Shown here: positions 14,346-50,762 of the stretch, piece after piece | How the letters are laid out: every line of letters begins with the position of its first letter | How positions within the stretch are numbered: the stretch's first letter is position 1 | Translations under genes and position numbers: made by a program | DNA from: Marinobacter sp. | GTDB lineage: Bacteria; Pseudomonadota; Gammaproteobacteria; Pseudomonadales; Oleiphilaceae | Length of the DNA: 64,000 nucleotides | Reading direction: 5' to 3' | Assembly: GCA_014359475.1 (NCBI GenBank) | Contig: JACIZI010000001.1 | Location: 336,936-400,935, forward strand | Notes under the pieces: generated by a model | Databases searched by the model: none | Told to the model about the DNA's origin: nothing | The model's input: the letters and a program-made list of their open reading frames with translations, nothing else

Positions 14346-14522
14346 CACCTTCTCCTGTCCGGGCGCTTGTGATTGTAATTGCGTCAAGCTGCGGGCTGAT
14401 CAGAAATCAACCCGACAAAAGTATCAGCCTCAAAAAAGAGACGGAAGAATACCAGTTTTGAGAACGATGAGGTAGTTTCCAGACAAGCCAGCGTTAACCA
14501 TAAAGCTCCCTGATCAGGCCGG

Positions 14523-15701
14523 TTACTTGCTGAGATATTTCATGGCGGACTCCATCCCCTCGATGGTCAGCGGATACATGTGATCCCCCACCAGCTGGCG
14601 GGTCATGGCCAGGGAGCCGCCGTTACCCCAGTAGCTTTCCGGCAACGGATTCAGCCAGACCACCTTGCGGAAGTGTTCCTGCACCCGCTGAAACCAGGTA
14701 GCGCCGGCTTCTTCGTTCCAATGCTCGATGGAGCCGCCGGGATGGGAGATTTCATAAGGGGCCATGGTGGCATCCCCCACAAAGATCACCTTATAGTCCG
14801 GGGTGTACTTGTGCAGGATATCCCAGGTCGACGTCGTCTCACTCATGCGGCGGATATTGCTCTTCCACACGCTCTCATAAATGAAGTTATGGAAGTAGAA
14901 ATACTCCATGTGCTTGAATTCCATCCTGGCCGCGGAGAACAGTTCCTCGCAGACCCGGATGTGAGGATCCATGGAGCCGCCCACATCAAAGAAGATCAGC
15001 ACTTTGACCGCGTTATGCCGCTCCGGCACCATCTTCAGGTCCAGGTAGCCGGCGTTGCGGGCGGTGGAGCGGATGGTGTCATCCATATCCAGCTTGTCCG
15101 CGGCACCCTGGCGGGCAAATTTCCGGAGCCGGCGCAGGGCCACCTTGATATTGCGGATGCCCAGGGTAACGCTGTCGTCCAGGTCCTTGAACTGGCGCTT
15201 TTCCCAGACCTTGACCGCCCGGCCCTGACGACCCTCCTTCTGGCCGATACGGAAACCTTCCGGATTATAGCCATTGGCGCCGAACGGAGAGGTACCGCCG
15301 GTGCCGATCCACTTGTTGCCCCCGGCGTGGCGCTCGTTCTGTTCTTCCATGCGTTTCTTGAAGGTTTCGATGAGCTCTTCAAGTCCGCCCAGGGAATCGA
15401 TTTTCGCCTTGTCTTCTTCCGACAGGTGTTTCTCGAACTCGGCACGGAGCCAGTCCTCGGGAATCAGGGCTTCCAGCAGGTCATCGAGCTTCTCGATGCC
15501 CTCAAAATAGGCCTGGAAGGCCCGGTCGAACTTGTCGAAATGCCGCTCATCCTTGACCAGACAGACCCGGGCCAGGTGATAGAAGTCCTCCATATCCGCG
15601 AACGCCAGCCGCTTCTGCAGGGCCTCCATCAGATCCAGATATTCCCGCAGGCTGGCGGGCACCCGGGCGCGGCGGACTTCCAGAAAAAAATCAATCAGCA
15701 T
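14523..15701 (-). CDS. VWA domain protein of the CoxE-like family
   Basis: A 392-residue protein without signal peptide or membrane helix. The N-terminal half is helical, and a von Willebrand A domain occupies about 232-392 with MIDAS motif DVGGS at 239-243. CoxE/YehP-like VWA proteins act with a MoxR-type AAA ATPase as metal-dependent chaperone or activation machinery. The MoxR gene is directly upstream with a 6-bp gap, which supports that pairing. The client protein is unknown. A conserved glycine-rich segment (GTGGTSPFGANGYNPEG) precedes the VWA domain. Confidence 0.86.
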   Translation of the reverse strand: MLIDFFLEVRRARVPASLREYLDLMEALQKRLAFADMEDFYHLARVCLVKDERHFDKFDRAFQAYFEGIEKLDDLLEALIPEDWLRAEFEKHLSEEDKAKIDSLGGLEELIETFKKRMEEQNERHAGGNKWIGTGGTSPFGANGYNPEGFRIGQKEGRQGRAVKVWEKRQFKDLDDSVTLGIRNIKVALRRLRKFARQGAADKLDMDDTIRSTARNAGYLDLKMVPERHNAVKVLIFFDVGGSMDPHIRVCEELFSAARMEFKHMEYFYFHNFIYESVWKSNIRRMSETTSTWDILHKYTPDYKVIFVGDATMAPYEISHPGGSIEHWNEEAGATWFQRVQEHFRKVVWLNPLPESYWGNGGSLAMTRQLVGDHMYPLTIEGMESAMKYLSK

Positions 15702-25807: not shown

Positions 25808-27940
25808 ATGCTCAAAGACTTCAGCCTTATCAGCTACGGACTGGCCACCGTTGCATTTGCCCTGCTGGCACTGCTGGCGGGCAGCCGTTACCTGCGCCGG
25901 AGTGTGGACCGCTACCTGCTGCTGGCCTCGATCATCTCCAGCGCCTGGGCGGCCTCAGTGGTCAGCCAGACCCTGTGGGGTACGCCGGGTTTCTTTGTGC
26001 GCTATGTGCTGGAAATAGGCCGGGATACCGCCTGGATCCTGCTGATGCTGTCCATTCTGAAGGCCTACGCCCGGGCCGGGGTCATCACCGGGCAAGTCCT
26101 CAAACGTCTCAACCTGGCCGCGCTGGGCGTGGTGCTGGCGCTCCTGGTACTCGCGTTTGGCGAACAGTTCTTCAGCTTTCCGGCACCGACCGGAAAACTC
26201 AAGGTACTGGGGCAAATTGCCCTCACCCTGCTCGGCATATCCCTGCTGGAGCAAATCTGGCGCAACGCCACCGCCTTCGGCCGCTCCGGCATCAAATACC
26301 TGTGCATCGGCATGGGTACGCTGCTGACCTTCGACTTCTTCATGTATGCCGACGCCCTGCTGTTCGGGGAAATCTCCGGCGCCTTCTGGAACGCCCGGGG
26401 CCTTGTGAATGCCATCATGGTGCCGTTGTTTGCGGTCAATGTCGTCAACACCCGCAAGCAACCCGTGGATTTCCAGCTCTCCCGGTCCGCCGTATTCCAT
26501 GCCGGCACCCTGCTGTTCGCCGGCGGCTACATGCTGATCCTCTCCCTGGCCGGCTACTACGTCCGGGCCATGGGGGGCGAATGGGGCGAAGCCCTGCAGG
26601 TACTGTTGCTTACCATTGCCATGGCCTTCCTGGTCGCGGTACTCGCCTCACGCCGCTTCCGGGCGCGCATGATGGTGTTCATCAGCCAGAACTTCTTCGA
26701 CTACAAATACGATTACCGGGAAGAATGGCTGAAGATGACCCGCCAGATGGCAGACCTGAGCAACGACCCCCCCCTCCCCGACCGGGTGGTCCGCATCCTC
26801 GCCGAACTGGTGGAAAGCAACGCCGGGGCGATCTGGATAAAGGATGAACAAGATAACTACGCACTGAAAACCACGGTAAACCTCGCGGCACCCAAATTCA
26901 CCACCATTGATGCGAACGCAGAAATCACCCGTTTCTTCCGGGAAAAGGAGTGGATCATCGACCTGCAGGAATACCGGGCCGATCCCATCAAACACAACCT
27001 GCTGGAGATCCCCGATGCCATCAGCAGCTTCCCGGAGGGCTGGCTGATTATCCCCCTGTACCTGGACAACGAACTCTATGGCATGGCCCTGATCGGCACC
27101 CCTTACGCCAAAGTGGAGCTTAACTGGGAAAACTTCGACCTGATCCGGGTGGTCGCCCGCCAGACCTGTAACCTGCTGGCCCAGGCGGATGCCCAGAACC
27201 GATTGTCCCGGGCCATGCAGTTTGAGGCAGTCAACAAAGCCTCCGCCTTCATGATGCACGACCTGAAAACCCTGATCGCCCAACTGTCCCTGCTGGTCAG
27301 GAACGCCCACCGGCACCGGGACAACCCCGCCTTCGTGGACGACATGATCACCACCACGGAACATGCGGTGCGCAAAATGTCCAACCTGATGGACCATATC
27401 CGCAAGCCGGCAGGCGAAGGCCAGAAAACCCGCAAGGTGGAACTCACCGGCATACTCCGGCAGCTGACAGAACAATACGCCAGGGGCAGCCCTGCCCCCC
27501 GAATCACCGGCACACAGGGCCCGGCAGTCATCAATGCGGACGAAGTGCAGCTGCGCTCGATCCTGGGCCACCTGATCCAGAATGCCCAGGATGCCACCCC
27601 GGCGGACGGCGAAATAACCCTCACCCTGAAAACCGCCAAACACAACGTGGCGCTGTTTATCCAGGACACCGGCAGCGGCATGACCGAAGACTTCATCCGC
27701 ACCCGGCTGTTCAAACCCTTTGAAAGCACCAAGGGCCTGACCGGCATGGGCATCGGCGCCTACCAGGCGCGGGAATACGTGCGCCAGATCGGCGGCACCA
27801 TGGATATCACCAGCGAGCCGGATCTGGGCTCCTGCTTTACCCTGCGCTTCCCGCTCGCCGAACCGGCAGAAGCAGCCGACAACGCCGACGAACCGGTACC
27901 GGTGCCAGGCCCTCCATTACCCGTAACCAATGCCAAATAA
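25808..27940 (+). CDS. prsK: PEP-CTERM system sensor histidine kinase PrsK
   Basis: A 710-residue kinase. The first 290 residues contain about eight membrane helices, the PrsK-type input domain. A GAF domain follows (about 315-470), then a dimerisation region with the phospho-accepting histidine at about 484 (MMHDLKTLIAQL). The HATPase domain has N-box LIQNAQDA, G1 DTGSGM and G2 GMGIGAYQAREYV. PrsK phosphorylates PrsR in XrtA-bearing bacteria. The prsR gene follows after 114 bp. The signal is unknown. A purine-rich AGAAGG abuts the ATG, an unusually close ribosome site. Confidence 0.93.
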   Translation: MLKDFSLISYGLATVAFALLALLAGSRYLRRSVDRYLLLASIISSAWAASVVSQTLWGTPGFFVRYVLEIGRDTAWILLMLSILKAYARAGVITGQVLKRLNLAALGVVLALLVLAFGEQFFSFPAPTGKLKVLGQIALTLLGISLLEQIWRNATAFGRSGIKYLCIGMGTLLTFDFFMYADALLFGEISGAFWNARGLVNAIMVPLFAVNVVNTRKQPVDFQLSRSAVFHAGTLLFAGGYMLILSLAGYYVRAMGGEWGEALQVLLLTIAMAFLVAVLASRRFRARMMVFISQNFFDYKYDYREEWLKMTRQMADLSNDPPLPDRVVRILAELVESNAGAIWIKDEQDNYALKTTVNLAAPKFTTIDANAEITRFFREKEWIIDLQEYRADPIKHNLLEIPDAISSFPEGWLIIPLYLDNELYGMALIGTPYAKVELNWENFDLIRVVARQTCNLLAQADAQNRLSRAMQFEAVNKASAFMMHDLKTLIAQLSLLVRNAHRHRDNPAFVDDMITTTEHAVRKMSNLMDHIRKPAGEGQKTRKVELTGILRQLTEQYARGSPAPRITGTQGPAVINADEVQLRSILGHLIQNAQDATPADGEITLTLKTAKHNVALFIQDTGSGMTEDFIRTRLFKPFESTKGLTGMGIGAYQAREYVRQIGGTMDITSEPDLGSCFTLRFPLAEPAEAADNADEPVPVPGPPLPVTNAK

Positions 27941-28054: not shown

Positions 28055-29437
28055 GTGATAGTTGTGATCAGACGCTTATTAATCGTAGAAGACGACCCCG
28101 GCCTGCAGAGTCAGATGCGCTGGTGCTTCAGCGATGACCTGGAAGTGGCCGTGGCCGGTGATTACGACACCGCCATGACCAGCCTGCGCCGGCTGGAACC
28201 GGAAGTGGTGACCCTGGATCTGGGCCTGCCCCCGGACCCTGGCGGCGCATCCGAGGGCTTTCGTCTGCTGGAAGACATACAGCGCCTGGCCCCGGGCACC
28301 AAAATCATCGTAGTGACCGGCCGGGAAGACAAAGAGAACGCCGTCAAAGCCATCGGCATGGGAGCCAGCGACTTCTACCAGAAACCCCTGGACCCGGACA
28401 TCCTCACCTTTGTGGTCAACCGCGCCTTCCGCCTGGCGGAGCTGGAGCAGGAGAACCAGGAACTGGCCACCCGGGGCAACGGCACCTCCATCAAGGGCAT
28501 TGTCGCCGCCAGCTCGCAAATGCTGGCCGTCTGCCGCACCCTGGAAAAAGTGGCCCCCACCGATGTCACCACCCTGATCAACGGCGAAACCGGCACCGGC
28601 AAGGAACTGCTGGCCCGGGCCCTGCACGATCTGAGCAGCCGCTCCTGCCAGCCGTTTGCCACCATCAACTGTGCGGCCATTCCGGAAAACCTGCTGGAAA
28701 GCGAATTATTCGGCTTTGAAAAAGGCTCCTTTACCGGCGCCACCCACACCAAGAAAGGCAAAATCGAAAGCGCCAACGGCGGCACCCTCTTCCTGGACGA
28801 AATCGGCGACATGCCCATGGCCCTGCAGGCCAAGTTGCTGCGTTTCCTTCAGGAACGGGTGGTAGACCGGGTAGGCTCCGTGAAACCCATACCCGTGGAT
28901 GTGCGGGTCGTCTGTGCCACCCACCGGGATCTGCACGAACGCATCCAGAGCGGTGACTTCCGCGAGGATCTTTATTACCGTGTCGCGGAAATCACCCTGG
29001 ACGTCCCCGCCCTGCGGGACCGGGACGGCGATGCACTGCTGATCGCCCAGTCGCTCCTGAAAGACCTGGGCAAACAGATGGACCGGCCCAACCTCAGCTT
29101 CAGCGAGGATGCCGTCAAGGCCATCAACAACTACGGCTGGCCGGGCAACGTGCGGGAAATGATCAACAAGGTAAAACGCGCCACCATCATGGCCGAGGGC
29201 CGGCGCATCACCGCCGACGACCTGCAAATGGCCAAATCCTGCGAAGGCGCGGACAATCAGCTGAATTTACGTCAGGTCCGGGAGAATGCCGAACGCCAGG
29301 CCATTACCACCGCCCTGCAGTCCTGCGGCTACAACATGGCCCAGGCCTCCCGGCTGCTGGGGATTACCCGCCCCACCCTGTACAACCTGACGGACAAATA
29401 CCGGATAGACACAACCCAGGAAGCTTCCCGGGCCTGA
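28055..29437 (+). CDS. prsR: PEP-CTERM-box response regulator PrsR (sigma-54 activator)
   Basis: An NtrC-type regulator of about 460 residues. The receiver domain has phospho-acceptor Asp55 (VTLDLGLPP). The AAA+ domain has Walker A GETGTGKE at 177-184 and the sigma-54 contact loop GSFTGA at 224-229, where most relatives have GAFTGA. The C-terminal Fis-type helix-turn-helix contains MAQASRLLGITRPTLYNL. The start is GTG at 28055 or, with better ribosome-site spacing, GTG at 28064. It follows prsK and precedes prsT. Its likely targets in this window are the -24/-12 promoters at 33509 and 37957. Confidence 0.94.
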   Translation: MIVVIRRLLIVEDDPGLQSQMRWCFSDDLEVAVAGDYDTAMTSLRRLEPEVVTLDLGLPPDPGGASEGFRLLEDIQRLAPGTKIIVVTGREDKENAVKAIGMGASDFYQKPLDPDILTFVVNRAFRLAELEQENQELATRGNGTSIKGIVAASSQMLAVCRTLEKVAPTDVTTLINGETGTGKELLARALHDLSSRSCQPFATINCAAIPENLLESELFGFEKGSFTGATHTKKGKIESANGGTLFLDEIGDMPMALQAKLLRFLQERVVDRVGSVKPIPVDVRVVCATHRDLHERIQSGDFREDLYYRVAEITLDVPALRDRDGDALLIAQSLLKDLGKQMDRPNLSFSEDAVKAINNYGWPGNVREMINKVKRATIMAEGRRITADDLQMAKSCEGADNQLNLRQVRENAERQAITTALQSCGYNMAQASRLLGITRPTLYNLTDKYRIDTTQEASRA

Positions 29438-29486: not shown

Positions 29487-32189
29487 ATGAAAGCAGTTTT
29501 CACCCTACGCGCAACGCTTCTCGCTGTCGCCATCGCCGCTGGCCTGGCGGGCTGCAGCGATAAGCAGGAAGAAATGAGCCAGGAAGAGATCCAGTATCTC
29601 AGTCACCTGGATCAGTCACGGTTTTTCAAAGGGCAAGGGGAATTAAAAGCAAGCACCCGTGAAGCCCGCAGCGCCATTGAACTCCAGCCCGAACGTCCGG
29701 ACCCGTACCTGGTCATTCTGGACAACCTGCTCACAGCGGGCGATGCGGTCAATGCTGAACGCCAACTGGATGTCCTGATCAGCAATATACCGGCAGAGTC
29801 GCTGACGCAGACCACAAAAAACCAGGCATCACTGATCCGTGCCCGGGCCAACCTGATGCAAGGGAAATCCGGGGCCGCGTTAGCCGCACTGGACTCTCTC
29901 CAGGCCCCGGACCGGGCCCAGCAGGAAACCGCTGCCATCATGCGTGGCAAGGCCCTCCTCGCCTCCGGCAAACCGGAAGCCGCCCGGGAAGCATACCAGG
30001 CTGCAAACAACATATCCCCCTCTGCCGAAGCGCATACCGGACTCTCAAAAGTAGCCTGGCAACTGGAACAACCAGAGCGTATGCAGGAACACATAGCCCA
30101 GGCGCAAGAAATTGATCCCAACTCCTCCGAACTGTGGCTCTGGAAAGCCAGACTTGCGGAAGAGTCCGGAAACTGGCCTGCCGCCGAAGAAGCCTATATC
30201 CAGGCACTGGAGGATATCGGGCGTTACGACATCATGACCTACCGGAAATATGAAACCATGTCGGCGCTGATCCGGGCATTACGGGAGCAGGGTAAATCCT
30301 CGGAAGCCTTCGTTTACGAAGAGATTCTCGCCAAATCCGCCCCGGGCACCATCAAGAGCAACCTCACCGCAGCACAGGTAGCCTACAAGAACGGCAACCT
30401 TGAAGATGCGGCACGCTATCTGGAAGAGATTCGCGCCCAGGCGCCCGGCAACGAACAGGCCGCACTCATGCTGGGACTGGTGAGATTCCGGCAGGGTCGG
30501 ATTGAGGAGGCCGAGCAACTACTGACACCGGTTGCCGAACTCGGCGAATCCGAACTGGCGAGCAAGCTGGTGGCCGCTTCGCGACTGCAGATGCGAGACC
30601 CGGAGGGTGCCCAACGCGCCCTGAAAAACATGGATATGGCCCAGACGGACCCGTCGGTGCTGGCAATGGTGGGGATTGCCTCCCTCTCCACCGGTGACAT
30701 CAAGACCGGGGAACAACTTCTGGAGAAGTCCCTAAGCCTGGCCCCGGATAACCAGCAGCTGCGCATCCGCTACGCGCGATACCTGATCGCCAGTGACCAG
30801 CCCGGCAAAGCCATGGAACAGATCGCAATACTGCGGGAGCAGGCCGGGGATTCGGACGTGGTAAACAGCCTGGCGATCCAGGCTCACCTGAGTAACGACA
30901 ACCGCGCCCAGGCCGTGGCCCTCGCTGACCAACGACTGAAAGACAAGCCCGAAGACCTGACCGCCCTGATGACACGGGGTGAACTGGCCGCACAAGCCAA
31001 CAACTATGACCGCGCCTCCGATTACTTCAGCCGGGCCGCCAGGGCCCATCCTGACAACGCCGCCCCCCTGGTAGCGCTTGGCCGGCTGGCACTGGCTCAG
31101 AACCAACAAAGCCAGGCACGAGCCCATTTCCGCAAGGCCGCCAATCTGAGCCCGAACAGCCTGCAGGCTTTGCAGGGCATGGCCCGGGCATACGGCGCGG
31201 AAGAGCTGAAACCGGAAATGGAAAAACTCGCGGAAGCTCACCCACAGGCCGCAGCGCCCAAGCTCATCCTGCTGGAAATCGCACTGACCAACGGCAACCA
31301 GAGCCGCGCAGACGAACTGACCGCAGCCCTCCTCCAGCGGGAAAGTGCCGACACACCACCGCCAGCGGCCTCCATCGTTGCCAACATATACAACGGCGTT
31401 GGTGCCGGCTTGCGCCGTAATGGGCAGGCAGAGCAGGCCGGGAAAGTGCTTAAACGGGGCCGCGTGTTGTTCCCCGAAAATGAGAACATAGCCCTGCAGG
31501 CCGCCTCCCTGGCCTTCAGCCAGAATCAGCAGGATGAGGCAAGGCGCATCCTGCAGGAAGTGAAGCGCAATCACAGCCAGTCCCCCGGCCCCTATCTTGT
31601 CGAAGCGGACTATTTCGCCAGTCAGCAACAACACCAGCAGGCCGCTGAGTTATACGAACTGGCTATCAGCAAGGGCGCCGGGGCGGACACGAAGCTCGCC
31701 GTTGTACGATCACTGGAACAGTCCGGCCGGCTGGAAGACGCCATCCAGTACGCCCAGAGCGCATTGGGTGAACACCCCCGCCACCAGGGACTTCTGATAA
31801 CCAGCGCAATGCTCCACCAACAAAACGACAATCGCGCCCGGGCGATCGAGGCCTACGAGCAGGTACTGGAAATCAACCCCCGCAATTCCCTTGCCCTGAA
31901 CAACCTGGCCTGGCTCTATCATCAAGAAGGCAACAAACGGGCCAGCGAACTGTCCCGTCAGGCATATGAGCTGAACCCTGAAAACGCTGCCATCGCGGAT
32001 ACGCATGGCTGGATTCTGTTCAAGTCAGGACAGACAGCGGCCAGTCTGCCGATACTCGAAAAGGCCCATGCTCTGGATCCGGAATCCAGAGAAATTGCCC
32101 TGCACCTGGCCGAGGCCTACCGCGCCGCCGGTCGCAGCGCCGATGCCAGAAGAATACTTGAGAAACAGGGCACCGACAGCAACGGGTAA
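29487..32189 (+). CDS. prsT: PEP-CTERM system TPR-repeat lipoprotein PrsT
   Basis: A 900-residue lipoprotein: signal peptide with lipobox LAGC (Cys23), followed by a nearly continuous array of TPR-like helical repeats (for example LALNNLAWLYHQEGNKRASE near the C-terminus). This is the size and architecture of PrsT, which occurs with PrsK and PrsR in exosortase A genomes. It is probably an outer-membrane-anchored periplasmic scaffold for polysaccharide or protein export, which is inference. It ends at a strong hairpin (32217-32245) facing the convergent SGNH hydrolase gene. Confidence 0.93.
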   Translation: MKAVFTLRATLLAVAIAAGLAGCSDKQEEMSQEEIQYLSHLDQSRFFKGQGELKASTREARSAIELQPERPDPYLVILDNLLTAGDAVNAERQLDVLISNIPAESLTQTTKNQASLIRARANLMQGKSGAALAALDSLQAPDRAQQETAAIMRGKALLASGKPEAAREAYQAANNISPSAEAHTGLSKVAWQLEQPERMQEHIAQAQEIDPNSSELWLWKARLAEESGNWPAAEEAYIQALEDIGRYDIMTYRKYETMSALIRALREQGKSSEAFVYEEILAKSAPGTIKSNLTAAQVAYKNGNLEDAARYLEEIRAQAPGNEQAALMLGLVRFRQGRIEEAEQLLTPVAELGESELASKLVAASRLQMRDPEGAQRALKNMDMAQTDPSVLAMVGIASLSTGDIKTGEQLLEKSLSLAPDNQQLRIRYARYLIASDQPGKAMEQIAILREQAGDSDVVNSLAIQAHLSNDNRAQAVALADQRLKDKPEDLTALMTRGELAAQANNYDRASDYFSRAARAHPDNAAPLVALGRLALAQNQQSQARAHFRKAANLSPNSLQALQGMARAYGAEELKPEMEKLAEAHPQAAAPKLILLEIALTNGNQSRADELTAALLQRESADTPPPAASIVANIYNGVGAGLRRNGQAEQAGKVLKRGRVLFPENENIALQAASLAFSQNQQDEARRILQEVKRNHSQSPGPYLVEADYFASQQQHQQAAELYELAISKGAGADTKLAVVRSLEQSGRLEDAIQYAQSALGEHPRHQGLLITSAMLHQQNDNRARAIEAYEQVLEINPRNSLALNNLAWLYHQEGNKRASELSRQAYELNPENAAIADTHGWILFKSGQTAASLPILEKAHALDPESREIALHLAEAYRAAGRSADARRILEKQGTDSNG

Positions 32190-33426: not shown

Positions 33427-33450
33427 TGTCCAGTTAATTTACAACAGTGC
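33427..33450 (+). promoter_or_regulatory. Candidate PrsR enhancer upstream of the first PEP-CTERM gene
   Basis: TGTC, 7 bp, then TTTACA (TGT at 33427-33429, ACA at 33441-33443), followed by GTGC. The TGT-N11-ACA dyad has the geometry of NtrC-type enhancers. The same TGTC-N7-TTTACA arrangement occurs upstream of the paralogous gene, and its distance to the -24 element matches within one base (65 against 64 bp). A separate 6-bp palindrome, TGCATG-N4-CATGCA, lies at 33448-33463. Confidence 0.6.
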
Positions 33451-33508
33451 ATGTGTTCATGCAGTAGCACCGCCCCTAAGTTCCTAAAACGAATAAATTA
33501 ACCAATAA

Positions 33509-33524
33509 CGGCACAGCACTTGCT
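33509..33524 (+). promoter_or_regulatory. Sigma-54 (-24/-12) promoter of the first PEP-CTERM gene
   Basis: The sequence CGGCAC, 5 bp, TTGCT fits the sigma-54 consensus TGGCAC-N5-TTGCA, with the invariant GG and GC in exact spacing. It lies about 90 bp before the ATG at 33612. PrsR, an NtrC-type activator encoded 5 kb upstream, is the likely partner. Confidence 0.82.
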
Positions 33525-33611
33525 GACTATAGATTGTTCACCAGTACGAACAAAATTACCACTGTCATCAACACGGCAGTATGTGTGGTAACAAAGGACA
33601 GGAGTATAGAG

Positions 33612-34418
33612 ATGTTGAAACAAGGAATCGCAGCCAGCCTGACAGGGCTTTCGTTGATCCTGGCATCCGCAGCAGTCTCTGCAGAGCCAATCTCGGTTAA
33701 CGATGCGTATATCGGTGCCGACGGCGGTGACCATGGTGATGTGGTGGGCTTTGAGTCCAAATTCGATATTTATTCCATGGATATCGAGCAAAATGGCAGC
33801 AAGTTCAACTTCACCGTGAACACTGCGTTTGCAGGTAAGGCGGGCGTATATCCAAGCCTGACCATCGGAAATACCGGCATTGGTTACGGTGACCTGTTCC
33901 TGGCAAATGATTGGGCACCTGCCGGATCCGCTGACGACGGCTACGCCAGCGATAATGCCTCTAACGGAACTGACTGGACCTGGGGCCTGATTCTCAGTGA
34001 CCGTTTCGACAACAATGGCGGAGATGTTTTTCTTGCCCAGCTTCCGGGAACTAACCTGCAAACTTCATTGCTCAGCAATAATTTTATGGATGTCCCCACA
34101 AGCCAGTATAGAAACGGCCAGGAAGTAGCCGTTAATACGGGCGATGGAGCTACGGAAGCCGGGCTGGTAGATCAATTTGGCAACGTCGGCACCTGGGGCC
34201 TTGGCACCAACCAGCTCAACATCAGCGTCGACCTCAGCCAGACCGACCTGCCGGGCGGCAACTCCCTTGCCTTTCACTGGGGTATGACCTGCGCCAACGA
34301 CGTGATCGAAGGCGAAGTGGAACTGACCAATAAAGTACCCGAGCCAGGCACCATCGGCCTGATCGCTCTGGCACTGGCTGGCATGCTGGTTATGCGCCGT
34401 CGTTCAAACAAGGCGTAA
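33612..34418 (+). CDS. PEP-CTERM sorting-domain surface protein
   Basis: A 268-residue exported protein: signal peptide (1-24, ending AAVSAEP), a beta-rich body, and a C-terminal PEP-CTERM tripartite signal VPEPGTIGLIALALAGMLVM followed by RRR. The conserved segment WGMTCANDVIEG lies immediately before the sorting signal and recurs in the paralogue at 37109-37897. XrtA would cleave at the PEP motif. An AGGAG ribosome site precedes the ATG at 33612, chosen over an in-frame start at 33534 because the signal peptide starts there. Regulated by the sigma-54 promoter at 33509 and ended by the terminator at 34445. Confidence 0.92.
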   Translation: MLKQGIAASLTGLSLILASAAVSAEPISVNDAYIGADGGDHGDVVGFESKFDIYSMDIEQNGSKFNFTVNTAFAGKAGVYPSLTIGNTGIGYGDLFLANDWAPAGSADDGYASDNASNGTDWTWGLILSDRFDNNGGDVFLAQLPGTNLQTSLLSNNFMDVPTSQYRNGQEVAVNTGDGATEAGLVDQFGNVGTWGLGTNQLNISVDLSQTDLPGGNSLAFHWGMTCANDVIEGEVELTNKVPEPGTIGLIALALAGMLVMRRRSNKA

Positions 34419-34444
34419 CACCTGCCAGGAAGTCCAAAAATCCG

Positions 34445-34474
34445 AGAGGGGCCAGTAACATGGCCCCTCTTTTA
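34445..34474. terminator. Strong rho-independent terminator
   Basis: AGAGGGGCCA (34445-34454) pairs perfectly with TGGCCCCTCT (34461-34470) around a 6-nt loop, followed by TTTTAT. It ends the PEP-CTERM gene on the plus strand. A-rich sequence on the other side (caaaaat) makes it usable for the convergent DUF5989/SxtJ/carbamoyltransferase operon. Confidence 0.9.
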
Positions 34475-34498
34475 TATCCAGTATCGAAACAAATCCAA

Positions 34499-34651
34499 TC
34501 AGAACAGGGTATAAATAAACGGCGCAAACGCCGAGCCCTGAGAAAACACCACCAGCGCCCCCAACATTACCAATGTGACAAACAGAGGCACCATCCAGAA
34601 CTTCTTGCGAGCCCGCACGAACATAAAGAAATCCTTGAACAACTCCAGCAT
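34499..34651 (-). CDS. DUF5989-like small membrane protein
   Basis: A 50-residue protein, MLELFKDFFMFVRARKKFW followed by one membrane helix and the end FAPFIYTLF. The pattern matches the small DUF5989 proteins that accompany carbamoyltransferase and SxtJ genes. Its ATG overlaps the SxtJ-like stop in a TGATG. Function is unknown; it may be a membrane partner for the carbamoyltransferase. Confidence 0.78.
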   Translation of the reverse strand: MLELFKDFFMFVRARKKFWMVPLFVTLVMLGALVVFSQGSAFAPFIYTLF

Positions 34652-35055
34652 CAGAACGGCACCTCCAGACTTGTCGGCTCGGAACTTTCCCGGCGATAGG
34701 TGGATGCCGAGGCATCAAATCGCTTGGGTGTCGGATCCTTGCCCAGCATCCTCATCACCAATCCCATGGGAACCACCATCAGAAAATAAACCAGACTCAA
34801 AAGCAGAACAGAGTTGATGCGCCCCAGCGGCACCGCTATCCACATCAACGCCCGATAGACCGGCCACAACCCCAAAGGAAACAGCAACGCCACCAGCAGC
34901 ACCCCGGCACCCGCCAGCAGTGGCCATGAAACCCGTGGCAGCCCAAACAACCAGGGCAGAATGCCATAAAACAACAGCGGCAAAATCACCGCCAGTCCGA
35001 TGCCAAATTTCCTGAGCTCCGTTCCCGATACCTTCTCCGATAACTTCATGGTCAT
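34651..35055 (-). CDS. SxtJ-like membrane protein
   Basis: The ATG at 35055 overlaps the stop of the carbamoyltransferase gene (TGATG), giving 134 residues. A short cytoplasmic start (MTMKLSEKVSGTELRKFG) is followed by three to four hydrophobic segments, including PVYRALMWIAVPLGRINSVLLLSLVYFLMVVP at about 65-96 (quoted only as landmark pieces: PVYRALMW and LSLVYFLMVVP). This matches the SxtJ family found beside carbamoyltransferases. The ending is polar. Function is unknown. Confidence 0.8.
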   Translation of the reverse strand: MTMKLSEKVSGTELRKFGIGLAVILPLLFYGILPWLFGLPRVSWPLLAGAGVLLVALLFPLGLWPVYRALMWIAVPLGRINSVLLLSLVYFLMVVPMGLVMRMLGKDPTPKRFDASASTYRRESSEPTSLEVPF

Positions 35056-36929
35056 CAATCCAGCTCAAATTTCTCTACATGGTCCCGGAATGCCTCATTC
35101 ACGGGTTGATCCGCCTTGGCCAGCACATGGTTGCCCATCACCAGATAATCCATGTCCGTCGCCATAAAGCAGCGATAGGCGTCCTCAGGCGTCGCCACAA
35201 TCGGCTCCCCCCGCACGTTGAACGAGGTATTGATCAGCACCGGGCACCCCGTCAGGTTATTAAATGCCTGCAACAACCGACGATAACGCGCAGAACCGCC
35301 CGCCTCTCCGACCGTCTGCAGCCGCGCACTGAAATCCACATGTGTCACCGCCGGGATCTCGGAACGCAGCATCTTCAACTGTTCAAGCCCTGACAAATCT
35401 CCAGCTTCATTATTACAACGCTTTTTCAGGGCCACCGGAGCGGTCGTCAGCATATAGGGACTATCATAATCACAGTCGAACCATTCTGACGCATTTTCCT
35501 CGAGTACCGACGGTGCAAACGGACGAAATGACTCCCGGAACTTGATCTTGAGATTCATGATCTCCTGCATGTCCCGCCGGCGCGGATCCCCAAGAATGGA
35601 CCGATGCCCCAATGCCCGCGGGCCAAACTCCATGCGCCCCTGAAACCAGCCAATCACCTTGCCCTCGGCAATCAGCCCGGCGACACGCTCGAACAGCCCA
35701 TCATCACCAAGACGCTCTGCAACGCCGGAATACTGCCCGACAACCGCCTCGATCGACTGATCCGAGTATTCCGGCCCCAGACAGGCACCGTTCATCCCGT
35801 CGGGACGCACCAGCTCACGCGCCTGCTTCAGATAAAGATACCACGCCGCCCACGCCGCTCCGGGGGCACCCCCCGCATCCCCGGCCGCCGGCTGAATCCA
35901 CACGCTGCTGAACCCGCTCTCCCGTATAACCTCCGCATTGGCGACGCAATTCAGGGCCACGCCGCCGGCCAGGCACAGATTTTCCATCCCGGTTTCCTTA
36001 TGCAAAGTGCGGGCAAGCAACAAAACGATATCGTTGGTGACCTGCTGGATGGACGCGGCGATATCCATGTGCTTCTGCGTTAACGCTGACGATTCAGACT
36101 GACGAACGGGCATGTCAAACAACGCCTCAAACGCCGGCGAAGTCATCCGCAGACCGGTGCAATACCCGAAATACGCCATATCCAACCGGAAAGAGCCATC
36201 CGGCTTCACATCAACCAGATGCTCCCGGATCAGATCCGCATACAAGGGCCGGCCATAAGGTGCCAGCCCCATCACCTTGTATTCGCCGGAATTCACCTTG
36301 AACCCCAGATAATAAGTAAAGGCCGAGTACAAAAGCCCCAGGGAGTGCGGAAAGTCAATCTCCCAGAGCGGCGACAGCGTATTACCGTCACCCACCCAGG
36401 CAGAGGTGGTTGCCCACTCCCCCACTCCATCCAGGCAGAGGACCGCAGCCTTCTCGTAAGGCGATGGAAAAAAAGCTGACGCAGCGTGGGACTGATGGTG
36501 GGCAGAGAACAAAAGCGGAGGCAAATCCCCGGCCTTCATACCGGAGACGGCGCAGAGCTGTGAACGCAGCTCTTTCTTGAGGTACAACTTTTCCTTCAGC
36601 CACACCGGCATGGCCTTGAGAAACGAACTCAACCCCTGCGGCGCAAAACTCAGATAGGTCTCCAGCAGGCGCTCAAACTTCAGCAGCGGCTTATCATAGA
36701 ACACCACATAATCAACCTGGCTCAGACCAATGCCAGCAAACTCCAGACAAAAGCTCACCGCGTAAGCGGGGAACCCGGGATCATGCTTCTTGCGGGTAAA
36801 CCGCTCTTCCTGGGCCGCCGCCACCAGCACCCCATCACAAATCAGCGCTGCCGCCGAGTCATGATAATAAGCAGAGATACCGAGGATATAACGTGGCGCA
36901 CGGGAGGGAGACTTCGTAGGGCCATCCAT
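35055..36929 (-). CDS. Carbamoyltransferase (NodU/CmcH family)
   Basis: A 624-residue O-carbamoyltransferase. The N-terminal Kae1-like domain starts ILGISAYYHDSAAALI and contains the metal-binding HHQSHAASAFFPSP motif at about 143-156, followed by LDGVGEW. The C-terminal domain carries GPRALGHRSILGDPR and the ending block NTSFNVRGEPIV. The family transfers carbamoyl groups from carbamoyl phosphate to sugar or other hydroxyls. It heads a three-gene operon with the SxtJ-like and DUF5989-like genes inside the PEP-CTERM locus, so a polysaccharide or glycolipid acceptor is likely but unproven. Confidence 0.92.
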   Translation of the reverse strand: MDGPTKSPSRAPRYILGISAYYHDSAAALICDGVLVAAAQEERFTRKKHDPGFPAYAVSFCLEFAGIGLSQVDYVVFYDKPLLKFERLLETYLSFAPQGLSSFLKAMPVWLKEKLYLKKELRSQLCAVSGMKAGDLPPLLFSAHHQSHAASAFFPSPYEKAAVLCLDGVGEWATTSAWVGDGNTLSPLWEIDFPHSLGLLYSAFTYYLGFKVNSGEYKVMGLAPYGRPLYADLIREHLVDVKPDGSFRLDMAYFGYCTGLRMTSPAFEALFDMPVRQSESSALTQKHMDIAASIQQVTNDIVLLLARTLHKETGMENLCLAGGVALNCVANAEVIRESGFSSVWIQPAAGDAGGAPGAAWAAWYLYLKQARELVRPDGMNGACLGPEYSDQSIEAVVGQYSGVAERLGDDGLFERVAGLIAEGKVIGWFQGRMEFGPRALGHRSILGDPRRRDMQEIMNLKIKFRESFRPFAPSVLEENASEWFDCDYDSPYMLTTAPVALKKRCNNEAGDLSGLEQLKMLRSEIPAVTHVDFSARLQTVGEAGGSARYRRLLQAFNNLTGCPVLINTSFNVRGEPIVATPEDAYRCFMATDMDYLVMGNHVLAKADQPVNEAFRDHVEKFELD

Positions 36930-37015
36930 AGATTACCGATTCCTGTTATTGCCTGTCCGGAAAAACGCAGTGTAAAAAATACCGACGCCTGCCAAGTATA
37001 GGATACCCGGCCCCC

Positions 37016-37055
37016 AAACAAAAAAACGGGATGCGGCGCAAACCGCATCCCGTTT
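37016..37055 (-). terminator. Rho-independent terminator after the second PEP-CTERM gene
   Basis: AAACGGGATGCGG (37024-37036) pairs perfectly over 13 bp with CCGCATCCCGTTT (37043-37055) around a 6-nt loop. On the minus strand the stem is followed by a T tract (37023 downward). It ends transcription of the PEP-CTERM gene before the carbamoyltransferase gene. Confidence 0.93.
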
Positions 37056-37108
37056 CTCAGATTATCTGCCCCATTCAGGCAAGGCAAATCAATCCGGGTT
37101 CAGAGCAA

Positions 37109-37897
37109 TCAGCTCTTCACACGCTTGCGCAGCCCAAGACCCAGCAGGCCCAGACCCAACAGAGCCAGAGTGCCCGGCTCGGGGACAGTGTAGGAACCTT
37201 CTACAACGTCGTTGGCGCAGGTCATGCTCCAGCGGAGGCCGATTTCGTGATTACGTGCACCGGCAAGGCCCAGGTCGCTCAGTGCGACCTGAAAGCTCAG
37301 AGCTGTCAAACCGGAGCCAGTGTCCGCGTTTACAGTCGCATTACCTTCCAGTGTTCCTCCGCTCTCATAACCTACTTCCTGATCCGTGCGAGTTGTCAGA
37401 CCCCCAAACGAACTGGCAACTTCATTCGAGTTGAGCAGATCTGCACCTGCCAGTCCCACCAGATCACCTACCCCGGCAGAACCACCGCCAGCATAGTCCG
37501 CATACCCGAAAGCTGAGACTCCGGTTACACGTTCATTGCTCGCAAGAACCGCGTAATCCCATACGCTTTGATTGCTGAAATCATCATCTTTGTAGAGAGG
37601 GCCGGTGCCATCCGGGTTCCACCCGTCCACATCGATAAACAGGTCTCCATACTGATACTGGAAAGTACCTGAATACGTTTCGTCAAACTGGGTGTACACC
37701 GTGACATAAAGATTGTCCAGGTCACTATCAACATCCATGCCATAGACATTGAAATCATGCCCACCCAGCGAATCTTTGTCCGCCCCGGCACCCCAGTATC
37801 CAACGGCAGGGTGGTCGCTGATCGTATATGCACCGGCGCCACTGACCATTCCAGTCGTCAACAGTGAGGCTGCGATAAATTTCCCAAAGGTTTTCAT
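37109..37897 (-). CDS. PEP-CTERM sorting-domain surface protein (paralogue)
   Basis: A 262-residue exported protein beginning MKTFGKFIAASLLTTGMVSG (ATG 37897, AAGGA ribosome site 8 bp before). Gly/Asp/Tyr-rich beta body, then LRWSMTCANDVVEG directly followed by VPEPGTLALLGLGLLGLGLR and KRVKS. The WxMTCANDV(I/V)EG block and the promoter architecture match the protein at 33612-34418, so the two are paralogues co-regulated by PrsR. XrtA is encoded divergently next door. A perfect terminator follows. Confidence 0.92.
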   Translation of the reverse strand: MKTFGKFIAASLLTTGMVSGAGAYTISDHPAVGYWGAGADKDSLGGHDFNVYGMDVDSDLDNLYVTVYTQFDETYSGTFQYQYGDLFIDVDGWNPDGTGPLYKDDDFSNQSVWDYAVLASNERVTGVSAFGYADYAGGGSAGVGDLVGLAGADLLNSNEVASSFGGLTTRTDQEVGYESGGTLEGNATVNADTGSGLTALSFQVALSDLGLAGARNHEIGLRWSMTCANDVVEGSYTVPEPGTLALLGLGLLGLGLRKRVKS

Positions 37898-37956
37898 AGC
37901 ATTCAGTCCTTTTTGCTTTACAGCATTGATATTCTGGTCATCACCGCAAAACAATA

Positions 37957-37972
37957 AGCAAAACGAGTGCCA
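37957..37972 (-). promoter_or_regulatory. Sigma-54 (-24/-12) promoter of the second PEP-CTERM gene
   Basis: On the minus strand TGGCAC, 5 bp, TTGCT matches the sigma-54 consensus in every conserved position. It lies about 60 bp before the ATG at 37897. Together with the equivalent promoter at 33509 it marks both PEP-CTERM paralogues as RpoN/PrsR targets. Confidence 0.88.
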
Positions 37973-38030
37973 CGTAACCTTTTTTGTTTTTTGTCAGTAT
38001 CTTGCGTTTGGGAAGGCCAGCCTGTCGAGG

Positions 38031-38053
38031 GCACAGTGTAAACAAATCTGACA
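38031..38053 (-). promoter_or_regulatory. Candidate PrsR enhancer upstream of the second PEP-CTERM gene
   Basis: On the minus strand TGTC, 7 bp, TTTACA, then CTGTGC (TGT at 38053-38051, ACA at 38039-38037). This repeats the TGT-N11-ACA arrangement found before the other PEP-CTERM gene, 64 bp before the -24 element. Confidence 0.6.
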
Positions 38054-38214: not shown

Positions 38215-39729
38215 ATGCACCCTAACCGTATCACCAGAAACTACAAGATCCTGCTTCTCTCGCTTCCGCTTTTGGTACTGGCCCTCTTTCAGGAGTGGCT
38301 GGATTACTTCCAGCTCTGGACAAACTCTTACATCTATCGCCACGGGCTTCTGGTCTTCGCCGGAACTCTTTTCCTTTTGTTTCAAAGAAAGGAGGTGTTC
38401 AGCAACCTGCGACCATCATTCTCCTGGATTTTCCTGATCATTCTCATCTGCCTCATCGCTACCTTACTTGTTGCCCATGCGGGCAATATCAAGCTGGCAA
38501 GACTTCTCTTACTGCCGTTAATTCTCATTGCATGGGGGGCAACCCTCTGGGGGCGACCTTTCGTAACGTTGGCAGCCGGCCCGATATTGTTGCTGCTTTT
38601 TGGCGCACCCTTCTGGGATGAAATGTCACCCGCCCTCCAGTGGCTCACGGTAGCGGTCGATGAGCGCGCACTTTCCCTGCTTTCCATCCCCGCAACTATT
38701 GATGAATTCTACATCAGGATCCCAAGCGGGGTATTCCATGTAGCTCACGGCTGCAGCGGCATACGCTATCTGATGGTTGGGCTGTACCTTGGCGCATTCT
38801 ATGGAGTGCTTACCAACAGCGGGCCCAAAAGAACAGCCTTTCTACTGGCCGCAGCAGGACTTCTGTCACTCCTTGCCAACTGGATACGCGTGGCCTCGAT
38901 CATTGCCGCAGGGCACTATACCAATATGGAATCGTCATTGGTGGACGACCATGAAATGTTTGGCTGGGCTGTGTTTGTCGCGGTGACACTGATACCCTTT
39001 TTCATTCTTACTCACTATCTGGACAAGAGAGGCAACTCCCACCCTGCTACTCCAGCCCTCGAACGGGAACAACCAGCACCTGCCTGGAAGCCGGCTTTTA
39101 TCAGCGCCTCATTACCGCTTATCGCAGTCCCTGTCGCACTGCTGCTGCAGAGCCAGGTAGCCCAGAGTACTGCTGAGAAATGGAACCCCGAACTTCCTGA
39201 GCTAAACACCGAAAGATGGACTGGCCCGCTGAGATATGCCGAATTCTGGGAACCCAAATTCCGCTCACCTGACATCAAACTGTCCGGCGTTTACGTCTCC
39301 GACCAGCAGGAACAAGCGCAGCTCGACTTCCTGGGATACCATCAACAAACTCAGGGAAAAGAACTCATTTATTATCAAAATACCGTATTCAATCCGGATC
39401 AGTGGGATCCTCTGAATAAAACTACCCGCCCGATAGCTTTCCACAATCCATGGAACCTGAATCGAGTCAATCAAATGACATTCACAGATTCAACGTCCGA
39501 AAAGCTGGCCCTCGTATGGTATTGGTATGATGTTGGCGGCTCTCTCGAAATATCCCCGGCTGAAGTGCAAATCGCTAGCAGTATCAAAAATCTGATCGGC
39601 GACCAACGGGCTGGGATCTGGATTCTCACGACCATGTGCAAAGGGAACAATCCCGGGAAATGCGCAACAGAGGGCGGAAATCGCCTTCAATCATTAATTC
39701 AGCAGGCAACCCCTGATAAAGCTGACTAA
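38215..39729 (+). CDS. xrtA: Exosortase A fused to EpsI domain
   Basis: A 504-residue inner-membrane cysteine transpeptidase-like protein. About eight membrane helices span residues 10-270. The exosortase catalytic triad is intact: Cys180 in AHGCSGIRYL, Arg225 in ANWIRVAS and His246 in DDHEMFGW. Residues from about 290 to 504 form a soluble EpsI-type domain, as in XrtA. It recognises PEP-CTERM tails and presumably cleaves and transfers the proteins. A glycosyltransferase gene follows after 25 bp with no terminator, so they are probably co-transcribed. Confidence 0.95.
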   Translation: MHPNRITRNYKILLLSLPLLVLALFQEWLDYFQLWTNSYIYRHGLLVFAGTLFLLFQRKEVFSNLRPSFSWIFLIILICLIATLLVAHAGNIKLARLLLLPLILIAWGATLWGRPFVTLAAGPILLLLFGAPFWDEMSPALQWLTVAVDERALSLLSIPATIDEFYIRIPSGVFHVAHGCSGIRYLMVGLYLGAFYGVLTNSGPKRTAFLLAAAGLLSLLANWIRVASIIAAGHYTNMESSLVDDHEMFGWAVFVAVTLIPFFILTHYLDKRGNSHPATPALEREQPAPAWKPAFISASLPLIAVPVALLLQSQVAQSTAEKWNPELPELNTERWTGPLRYAEFWEPKFRSPDIKLSGVYVSDQQEQAQLDFLGYHQQTQGKELIYYQNTVFNPDQWDPLNKTTRPIAFHNPWNLNRVNQMTFTDSTSEKLALVWYWYDVGGSLEISPAEVQIASSIKNLIGDQRAGIWILTTMCKGNNPGKCATEGGNRLQSLIQQATPDKAD

Positions 39730-44834: not shown

Positions 44835-44949
44835 ATCCGCCTCTCCTTGCTGCATGGCAACTATCAGAAGGATGGCACATATTGTGAACCGCGTTGCTTT
44901 ATGGCTAGTTCAATTGAGCATATGCCGCCTGGCTTTATGGCCAAATTTA

Positions 44950-45591
44950 CTAACCTGCCCTTTTTGCCACTCCCCTGATTCCAAGGAACATCAGGCCAAG
45001 CACTACCAGTACGAACGAGCCAGGTGCCGGTACCTCCACAATCCGACTGATCTCACCATAAAGATCTTCCTCGGTGCCATAGTAATCACCATGCAATTGA
45101 TTAAAAAACCAAAAATGAAATCCGCCCGAACGAAACCGGTCAAGGTTAATTTCACCAGAATCCCGGACAAACCAGTCATCTTCCGGTATGTTCACGGTTC
45201 CGGTTTCATCCATACCATACAGGGTGAGGTAGATATCGTAAGGGTAGACCTGAGATCCGTTCCCGGCAGGCGGGTTTATCGGGGAGTAGCTACCACTCGT
45301 GTAGAACCGTTCAGGCGAGTCATCACCAAAGATATAAAAGGCTGACGTATGCTGCTGCTGGAACGCCCAATCACCAACGACCCCGTGAAAAGCCACCTTG
45401 TGATCCGGCGAGTTTCTTGCCCACACATTCAGGCGAATGACAAACTCATCGCCGATATCCACATCCGACAACGCTGCTGCTCCGTTCGGGTCGCCTGTCA
45501 CGGTGCCATGCAGGTCATAGGAATAAAAAGGTTTTGCCTGCGCCAAACACGCTGCGGCAACCAAGAGACTAAACAATAATAAGCGCTTCAT
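44950..45591 (-). CDS. Variant PEP-CTERM (VPAPGS) exported protein
   Basis: A 213-residue protein: signal peptide (1-19, ending CLAQAKP), a Tyr/Asp/Gly-rich beta body, and a C-terminal signal VPAPGSFVLVVLGLMFLGI followed by RGVAKRAG. The motif is PAP in place of PEP, but the hydrophobic helix and basic end fit the exosortase signal. No -24/-12 promoter was found upstream, unlike for the 33.6 and 37.1 kb genes. It lies downstream of a terminator hairpin and precedes the multidomain lipoprotein on the same strand. Confidence 0.78.
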   Translation of the reverse strand: MKRLLLFSLLVAAACLAQAKPFYSYDLHGTVTGDPNGAAALSDVDIGDEFVIRLNVWARNSPDHKVAFHGVVGDWAFQQQHTSAFYIFGDDSPERFYTSGSYSPINPPAGNGSQVYPYDIYLTLYGMDETGTVNIPEDDWFVRDSGEINLDRFRSGGFHFWFFNQLHGDYYGTEEDLYGEISRIVEVPAPGSFVLVVLGLMFLGIRGVAKRAG

Positions 45592-48998: not shown

Positions 48999-49261
48999 CT
49001 AACCCGCTCATCCGCATAGCGACTTCAGCATTGTTCCGAAACTTGAACGGACTAAAATCTGTCGACAAGTTTTACAGGTTCAATACTATAGGTTATCTAA
49101 CATATTGATTTTACAAGCTTGGCGTATTATTTGCTATCGTATAGCCGAGTTGGTAATTTCACCATTTTCGGGCCCGTGGCGCTTAAGATGCTGATCAATT
49201 CATCGCCTCTAAAGTATCGCTACTAGAGAGCGTCAGGATTTGATACGTAAGGATACGAATT
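48999..49261. other. Spacer without recognisable gene
   Basis: A relatively A+T-rich spacer between the IS5 remnant and the decayed PEP-CTERM copy. I see no convincing coding frame, RNA gene or terminator. It begins with the CTAA next to the IS terminus. Confidence 0.5.
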
Positions 49262-49620: not shown

Positions 49621-50307
49621 CTAATGAGTGCAACATATGAAAAGCTTAGAAGGGTCATCGTGGATGGTGTAGCAAGTATTGCATTGACCGTGTTTGCCCT
49701 ATTTATTCCATCTATCACCGAAGCAGCGATAATCACTATTGACCCTAGTGATTATGCAGAGGGCGCTAACTTGTCTAACGTCTCTCCATTTGTCACGTTG
49801 CAATATTTGGATGGCTCGTACGGTTCTTACCCAATTGAGACGAAGAGATCCTCCTTTAGTGGCGACCTCACTTTTGGGACTATGCACTCCCAATGGGTTC
49901 AGTGTGTCGGACGTTATGAGTGTGCTCAAGGTTTTGGGATGGCTTTCACGCAGTCCCCCCGATGGGTTTCTTTTTCGATGACTCTAACCAATTTTGTTCT
50001 CAGCGAGTTGAGCACCCTAGTTTGGCACGCATTCGATGGAGCTGGATATGAAATAGCCTGGCAGAGAACGATAACCTATGGCTATCAACCCGGCCAGTTT
50101 TATTCGTGGAATATCGCCGTCCCGAATGCAAAGTATCTCGTAGTAGGTGGTGGTGGCTATCCGAGCCCAGGAGAGTTTGATCGGCTATCCTTTGCCGTGG
50201 GGGTGGCCGAACCATCAGCACTGGCGCTCTTCTCTCTAGGCTTAATAGGCATATTCTTCCAGAGAAGGGCAAGTCATCGAAAAGGTGACTTGCCCGCCAG
50301 AAATTAA
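49621..50307 (+). CDS. PEP-CTERM-like exported protein (VAEPS variant)
   Basis: The ATG at 49621 follows a GAAGGAAA ribosome site; an in-frame open frame back to 49504 comes from the decayed copy upstream. The 228-residue protein has a signal peptide (about 1-38, ending SITEAA), a beta-rich body with one CVGRYEC cysteine pair, and the C-terminal signal VAEPSALALFSLGLIGIFF followed by QRR and a 12-residue polar extension. The base composition is less GC-rich than the core genome. No sigma-54 promoter was found. It lies inside the repeat-flanked insertion, so it is probably a later arrival. Confidence 0.8.
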   Translation, partial: LMSATYEKLRRVIVDGVASIALTVFALFIPSITEAAIITIDPSDYAEGANLSNVSPFVTLQYLDGSYGSYPIETKRSSFSGDLTFGTMHSQWVQCVGRYECAQGFGMAFTQSPRWVSFSMTLTNFVLSELSTLVWHAFDGAGYEIAWQRTITYGYQPGQFYSWNIAVPNAKYLVVGGGGYPSPGEFDRLSFAVGVAEPSALALFSLGLIGIFFQRRASHRKGDLPARN

Positions 50308-50576: not shown

Positions 50577-50762
50577 GGAATGCTCCAATCCAAATTGAAA
50601 CTTCACCGCAGCAACAAATGCGCCAAGTACTTTACCCTATAATATCAATCGATTATCCGACATCATTCTCGGAAGTGTAAAGGCGACTGACACACCGGTT
50701 CGCTGAATCAGATAAACCCGCACTGCAGCCCTGCCTACCTGATGGTGACTTTTAGCCGGTCA

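Follow-up and report, generated by a model that had tools for sequence, protein, structure and literature searches.

The DNA analysed here is a stretch of 64,000 nucleotides from Marinobacter sp. (assembly GCA_014359475.1, contig JACIZI010000001.1, positions 336,936 to 400,935), referred to below as the window. In its PEP-CTERM/exosortase cluster it carries an activator box, TGTC-N7-TTTACA, upstream of −24/−12 (sigma-54) promoters. Judged by sequence, this element is very probably the control region that Haft et al. described for proteobacterial PEP-CTERM genes in 2006 (PMC1569441). Its most likely reader is PrsR, the NtrC-type regulator whose gene lies in the same cluster and whose kinase would be PrsK. 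The analysis further suggests three features that are new here, namely discrete classes of spacing between box and promoter, an enrichment of a positioned site resembling that of integration host factor (IHF), and a near-identical switch before a likely small RNA.

The part of the 2006 paper that deals with the motif (PMC1569441) describes a 17-nt sequence ending in TTTACA, a spacer with a mean of 62.8 (s.d. 10.6) and a −24(GG)/−12(GC) motif; 99 of 167 proteobacterial PEP-CTERM genes carry the pair, and PrsR is its predicted reader. The window shares with the region described there the motif, the spacer, the promoter, the mostly single-gene PEP-CTERM operons and the match to the PrsR/PrsK/PrsT profile. 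That section does not mention spacing classes, an IHF site or a small-RNA target, all of which are suggested by the present analysis. The window is a clean instance of the predicted regulon and its element a correct rediscovery, with a wider, testable grammar around it: the spacing classes and the IHF-like site give a loosely defined pair of motifs a set of rules that could sharpen regulon prediction in PrsR-bearing proteobacteria.

A scan of the window with a weight matrix for box plus promoter, trained without sites from the window's own genome, picked out four sites and no others, and found nothing when the sequence was reversed; these sites are therefore not chance matches (Table 1). The 17-bp motif ending in TTTACA is present at the sites, and the gaps from box to GGC are 66, 65, 44 and 51 bp for sites 1 to 4, all inside the Haft-type spacer range of 32–92 bp. 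A PEP-CTERM gene lies downstream at three of the four (four of five in the genome), and PrsR, PrsK and PrsT are all encoded in the genome. Sites 1 and 2 had been reported in a first-pass annotation as boxes and promoters before two PEP-CTERM paralogues, and were confirmed to the base, as were the distances of 65 and 64 bp given there, which were counted to C/TGGC and not to GGC. Both sites are real, but the pair is incomplete, as the window has four such sites and the genome five.

In the whole genome there are 11 copies of the exact box, against one in the reversed control. Five of them have GGC-N7-TTGC 44–66 bp downstream, while the other six have no such promoter at 40–70 bp. The first-pass annotation had taken the box for a sigma-54 activator's enhancer, and hence for a motif with which the genome could be scanned for the PEP-CTERM regulon. 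The scan bears this out: box and promoter precede all four PEP-CTERM genes above the Pfam cut-off. The fifth composite (site 4, 50611–50692) precedes only a 61-codon open frame, the start of which resembles an acyltransferase by eye and which has no Pfam match. The earlier interpretation is supported in part, and is not new, having been predicted in 2006 (PMC1569441).

Elsewhere in this genome, two exact boxes without a sigma-54 promoter occur on contig C45 (G000:C45:42348–42364 and 50634–50650), no more than about 9 kb from the PEP-CTERM gene of that contig; one of them sits just past the end of the gene. A relaxed box–promoter pattern matches at C1:224606–224672 (L021) and C9:6644–6714 (L024), with no match in the control.

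Spacing classes and the IHF-like site

The composite pattern, TGTC-N7-TTTACA followed after a gap by GGC-N7-TTGC, was searched for in 124 genomes of the genus with gaps of 40–70 bp, and in a phylum sample of 398 genomes with gaps of 36–66 bp. It was found in 58 genus genomes (76 sites, of which 75 were read, the G119 site being excluded; reversed control 0) and in 27 genomes of the phylum sample (control 1). For other gaps the scan covered 80 of the 83 genomes that had given hits, G042, G085 and G103 being excluded. Gaps of 68–98 bp gave 27 sites, at 69, 74–77, 82–88 and 97 bp, with two in the control, and gaps of 8–38 bp gave two sites and two in the control, which is control level. Gaps of exactly 67 bp outside the genus fell between the scanned ranges.

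In total 149 unique sites were read, 147 of them with gaps of at least 38 bp. The gap is 41–45, 50–55, 60–67, 74–77 or 82–88 bp in 143 of the 147, and 47, 59, 69 and 97 bp in the rest. The classes are centred at approximately 44, 52, 64, 76 and 86 bp, in Marinobacter and in other Pseudomonadota. A fixed distance between box and promoter, as originally claimed, thus holds for sites 1 and 2, but represents one class among several and not a single value. The GTGC that had been counted as part of the element, 3 and 2 bases past the box at these two sites, does not belong to it: 3 of the 147 sites have it in the 8 bp that follow the box, where chance predicts about 2.9.

Clustering by spacer similarity reduced the 147 sites to 111 clusters (67 from the genus and 44 from outside it), of which 107 fall in the five classes. 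Periodicity of the gaps was compared with 5000 smeared nulls, in which every gap was shifted randomly by up to 8 bp, and which are independent of the class windows. It exceeded all of them for the full 111 clusters, for the 67 genus and 44 non-genus clusters separately, and for the 72 PEP-CTERM clusters, a set that includes one cluster (L038) wrongly called by our tail rule. The mean step from the lowest to the highest class is about 10.4 bp, close to one turn of the helix.

The discrete classes suggest helical phasing of box against promoter: because the two must face each other, the box would shift only by approximately whole helical turns, so that discrete spacings would result. Some details weigh against such phasing. 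The best-fitting period is 11.2 bp overall (11.0 outside the genus, 11.6 within) and not 10.5, neighbouring class centres lie, judged by eye, anywhere between about 8 and 12 bp apart, and the class windows, which cover 32 of 61 possible values, were drawn after the data had been seen. Shared ancestry could also produce such classes, given that a single genus supplies 67 of the 111 clusters and that orthologous promoters share spacers, but we consider this improbable, since the same classes recur in the 44 non-genus clusters, which come from ten families in and outside the taxonomic class.

The four off-class sites were kept out of the IHF test described below. Those at 47 bp (L048) and 69 bp (L035) overlie long reverse frames, and the tail match of the one at 59 bp (L038) is implausible. 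The site at 97 bp (L208) precedes an NEP-type tail; it is possibly genuine, and its gap would be compatible with one more class.

A match to at least seven of the nine IHF consensus positions, in one orientation, is present in 84 of the 107 in-class spacers, compared to 50.8 (s.d. 4.6, highest 61) in 200 shuffles. Eight positions are reached in 31 spacers, compared to 9.3 (highest 20), and two reversed-letter controls were at expectation (44 vs. 46.5 and 52 vs. 49.8). In 38 of the 84 the IHF-like site starts 32–34 bp before GGC, across all four classes from 50 bp up. At three of the four window sites the putative IHF site reaches seven positions or more; only site 2 has the 33 bp position, with sites 3 and 4 at 23 and 31 bp. 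There are points on the other side. Window site 1 has only six of the nine positions, and the 32–34 bp placement is seen in only one of 11 clusters in the 82–89 bp class and none of four in the 41–45 bp class. Part of the signal may be due to AT-rich composition, because the opposite orientation is also mildly enriched (65 vs. 51.7, highest shuffle 63).

A small-RNA candidate

Downstream of four sites, with gaps of 76, 76, 85 and 86 bp, there is no gene; a short stretch follows instead, closed by a strong hairpin and a run of T. A pattern for this RNA 3′ end was found once each in 93 of the 124 genus genomes, with none in the control, and in a named genome collection it gave 70 stretches, 68 of them labelled Marinobacter. 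Ninety of the 93 loci were read (G120, G121 and G123 excluded), and the best-scoring GG-N10-GC promoter and box were taken from the upstream stretch. In 82 loci the box departs from the consensus at no more than one of 11 positions, in 80 the promoter does so at no more than one of nine, and the gap is 75–89 bp in 89. The boxes usually read TTTGACA (palindromic TGTC-N9-GACA) rather than TTTACA; position 14 is G in 67 loci, A in 12 and T in 11.

The candidate is approximately 75–80 nt long, and consists of a variable 5′ hairpin, an invariant AUGCCGAGCUU and a terminator hairpin. In an alignment of 71 of the 83 distinct predicted transcripts, with hairpins drawn by hand, both-sided pair changes occur in 32 cells, compared to 9.9 in shuffles (0 of 500), although kinship can push such counts above shuffles and six of the seven base pairs in the terminator are invariant. 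Pair types are not clearly more numerous than in shuffles (14 vs. 12.1; 51 of 500), and the RNAalifold covariation term is small, at −0.29. Five of six single folds have z scores between −3.9 and −5.6, and the sixth, from another genus, −1.7. A reading as a peptide, from the conserved start codon ATGCCGAGC onwards, was rejected: the distance from this codon to the hairpin varies in length, which puts different genomes in different frames.

A covariance model finds the RNA in 109 of the 124 genus genomes (weakly in G071 and G094), and in 15 genomes of the same family outside the genus, some of them weakly. Twenty model hits were read, of which 14 have a promoter by the GG/GC rule and a box at 67–87 bp. 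Among the six that do not, G748 and G306 look like chance hits, while G536 and G541 show a box by eye. Rfam searches of four RNA loci at the gathering threshold gave no match, and hence no membership of GlmY/GlmZ. Four further loci searched at a low threshold gave 25 matches. All of them fall in a single locus and concern eukaryotic families (miRNA, snoRNA or scaRNA), and none attains the gathering score of its model; the matches lie mostly on a palindrome beside the RNA, and three reach into the RNA end.

In the strict pattern set the RNA lies 13.6–20.4 kb from prsR on the same strand in all 83 cases where both are on one contig; they are on different contigs in seven more genomes, and prsR is absent in three. 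In the window genome the covariance model finds no match. Box, promoter and RNA are missing from the place they would occupy (Table 1), because the kept flanks stand only 106 bp apart, compared to 590 bp in the relative G016 (L200).

We tentatively propose that, in Marinobacter and closely related bacteria, PEP-CTERM/exosortase control may include an RNA arm. The phased box–IHF–sigma-54 grammar, with either PrsR or a sister activator as its reader, would there drive a conserved two-hairpin RNA in the neighbourhood of the prs/exopolysaccharide cluster, and would switch it together with the surface-protein genes. The window genome would then have lost the RNA from its usual place, and kept the protein arm. 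If the small RNA is real, control by such activators extends beyond surface proteins.

Activators that could read the box

The mechanism that we envisage begins with phosphorylation of PrsR by PrsK, which would presumably act as the switch. PrsR would then assemble on the activator box, and IHF, bound at a site usually in a set place before the promoter, would bend the DNA, such that the PrsR ring could contact the sigma-54 polymerase at −24/−12 and drive promoter opening. PrsR had been named as the reader in the first-pass annotation. Its gene is indeed in the window, but its role stays a prediction, as one genome, G074, keeps the box with no detectable PrsR.

In the search for PrsR, 12 candidates were scored per genome; where PrsR seemed to be absent, in nine genomes, the search was repeated with every candidate scored. 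G051 has a broken copy in two frames and was counted as positive, which gives 116 genus genomes with PrsR and eight without. Several results from this comparison count against PrsR as reader. G074, which is 100% complete and on a single contig, keeps a TTTACA composite before a PEP-CTERM-like gene; composite sites occur in 55 of the 116 genomes with PrsR and three of the eight without, which is hardly different; and the RNA is kept in six of the eight, compared to 103 of the 116 (Fisher p 0.25). An association between PrsR and RNA seen with the strict pattern (Fisher p 0.023) had to be given up when the covariance model added divergent copies to the count.

A further activator of the NtrC type, with a site much like that of PrsR, is a live alternative, because the RNA and the G074 composite persist without PrsR. 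PrsR would then read TTTACA, and the other activator the palindromic TGTC-N9-GACA boxes, in line with the G usual at position 14 of the RNA loci. In two of the PrsR-less genomes that keep the RNA (G045 and G083, both 99% complete) its box and promoter are both preserved, with gaps of 87 and 86 bp; the other four are 62–94% complete. On the other hand, the RNA box differs at one position only, and the spacing classes are the same. The constant placement of the RNA relative to prsR also speaks against a second activator, yet shared inheritance would account for it. A PrsR-like recognition helix was found in none of 10 other activators from PrsR-less genomes, in a comparison limited to best whole-protein matches, several with unaligned C-termini. 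Overall we rate a second activator as possible rather than probable, and PrsR as the preferred reader. A plain duplication of the two paralogues with their upstream DNA, of no regulatory meaning, can be dismissed with near certainty: the genes stand close together in one cluster and each has a PEP-CTERM protein as its product, but their ungapped spacers are at most 40% identical while box and promoter are kept, and the composite precedes many other genes in other genera.

The genome of the window contains a second prsK-prsR-prsT fragment, on contig C52 (L137; 4460 bases). Its PrsR is identical to that of the window at 379 of 460 positions, and elsewhere in the genus the genomes that have PrsR show a single copy. 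The fragment may be a second system or contamination.

Target genes, related systems and the window cluster

By our tail rule, 51 of the 75 genus sites read precede a PEP-CTERM-like gene, with L038 wrongly among them. Of the other 24, seven have sequences that end within or just before a visible PEP-type tail and four end before the tail, and the remainder precede other genes or no gene, or are chance sites. Among in-class clusters the count is 71 of 107. The latter count is too low, because many genes overrun the sequence that was retrieved and the rule misses some variant tails. Other targets include CHASE2 membrane proteins (L028 and L029 by Pfam, L051 and L116 alike by eye) and gamma-glutamyltranspeptidase (L032 by Pfam, L197 and L201 alike by eye). 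In four genomes of one family outside the taxonomic class (f45; L140, L141, L142 and L144) the pair stands at 44–45 bp before a conserved small membrane protein of 77–91 residues, with no Pfam match in the two tested.

The literature holds two related cases. RpoN1-dependent pepA of Aquincola tertiaricarbonis (PMC9850573) is a PEP-CTERM gene with a mapped −24/−12 promoter, and, as at the window sites, a predicted enhancer is noted upstream; the available part of that report concerns one gene, and unlike the present work contains no analysis of spacing or IHF. Control of GlmY by QseF/GlrR, sigma-54 and IHF in enterobacteria, as far as described in the accessible sections of PMC6075780 and PMC8745638, shares with our element the NtrC-type regulator, a TGT…ACA inverted repeat and the sigma-54 promoter, and its IHF and small-RNA output would correspond to the IHF-like site and the RNA candidate described here. 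It differs in having three QseF sites of the form TGT-N12-ACA (18 bp), whereas here there is one evident site, TGT-N11-ACA (17 bp). The RNA candidate is also unlike GlmY in its length and in having no Rfam match, and the other targets here are mainly PEP-CTERM genes. A study of Marinobacter biofilm transcripts (PMC8233155) mentions PEP-CTERM, with no promoter analysis in the part available. A literature search, judged mostly by title and start of abstract and with thin coverage of subscription journals, recognised no PrsR binding data, spacing classes, IHF site or small RNA.

Table 1. Control sites, genes and the empty RNA slot in the window.
Feature	Sequence	Position	Strand	Remarks
Activator box, site 1	TGTCCAGTTAATTTACA	33427..33443	+	Exact match; one of four weight-matrix composites
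−24/−12 promoter, site 1	CGGCACAGCACTTGC	33509..33523	+	Pattern and weight matrix; misses consensus at first base
Activator box, site 2	TGTCAGATTTGTTTACA	38037..38053	−	Exact match and weight matrix
IHF-like site, site 2	CAAGATACTGACA	37992..38004	−	7/9 consensus positions; start 33 bp before GGC
−24/−12 promoter, site 2	TGGCACTCGTTTTGC	37958..37972	−	Pattern and weight matrix
Activator box, site 3	TGTCGACAAGTTTTACA	49060..49076	+	Exact match and weight matrix; overlooked in first-pass annotation
IHF-like site, site 3	TAACATATTGATT	49098..49110	+	9/9; start 23 bp before GGC
−24/−12 promoter, site 3	TGGCGTATTATTTGC	49120..49134	+	Pattern and weight matrix; 44 bp class
Activator box, site 4	TGTCAGTCGCCTTTACA	50676..50692	−	Exact match and weight matrix; overlooked in first-pass annotation
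IHF-like site, site 4	TAATCGATTGATA	50643..50655	−	9/9; start 31 bp before GGC
−24/−12 promoter, site 4	TGGCGCATTTGTTGC	50611..50625	−	Pattern and weight matrix; only 61-codon open frame downstream
Empty RNA slot		14417..14523		Flanks as in relative G016 (L200), where they enclose box, promoter and RNA candidate
prsK, sensor kinase		25808..27940	+	TIGR02916 674.8 bits (cut-off 300)
prsR, NtrC-type response regulator		28055..29437	+	TIGR02915 662 bits (cut-off 502.6)
prsT, TPR lipoprotein		29487..32189	+	TIGR02917 356 bits (cut-off 312.2)
PEP-CTERM protein gene 1		33612..34418	+	PF07589 28.3 bits (cut-off 20.7); TIGR02595 25.5 bits (cut-off 16)
PEP-CTERM protein gene 2		37109..37897	−	PF07589 33.8 bits
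Exosortase A fused to EpsI domain		38215..39729	+	TIGR03109 216.5 bits (cut-off 208); TIGR02914 61.8 bits (cut-off 42.8)
PEP-CTERM protein gene 3		49624..50307	+	PF07589 21.5 bits (cut-off 20.7)

PEP-CTERM gene 3 starts about 490 bp past the promoter of site 3. Between promoter and intact gene, at 49257–49454, is a decayed copy of the start of the gene, recognised by eye (SITEATIIIIEPDDFSEGADLSNVSPYV, then a stop). A fragment of a DUF772 transposase is found at 48397–48936. Between PEP-CTERM genes 1 and 2 (35055–36929, minus strand) is a gene for a NodU-like protein, with an NCBIfam score far under the cut-off, and the same cluster encodes a protein in which Pfam recognises Golvesin C-terminal domains together with a TSP3 repeat (43299–44855, minus strand). 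The gene at 44950–45591 (minus strand) codes for a secreted-looking protein with a VPAPG tail. It has no Pfam or NCBIfam match and no box by weight matrix, although to the eye it resembles a gene of G113 before which a box stands (L206).

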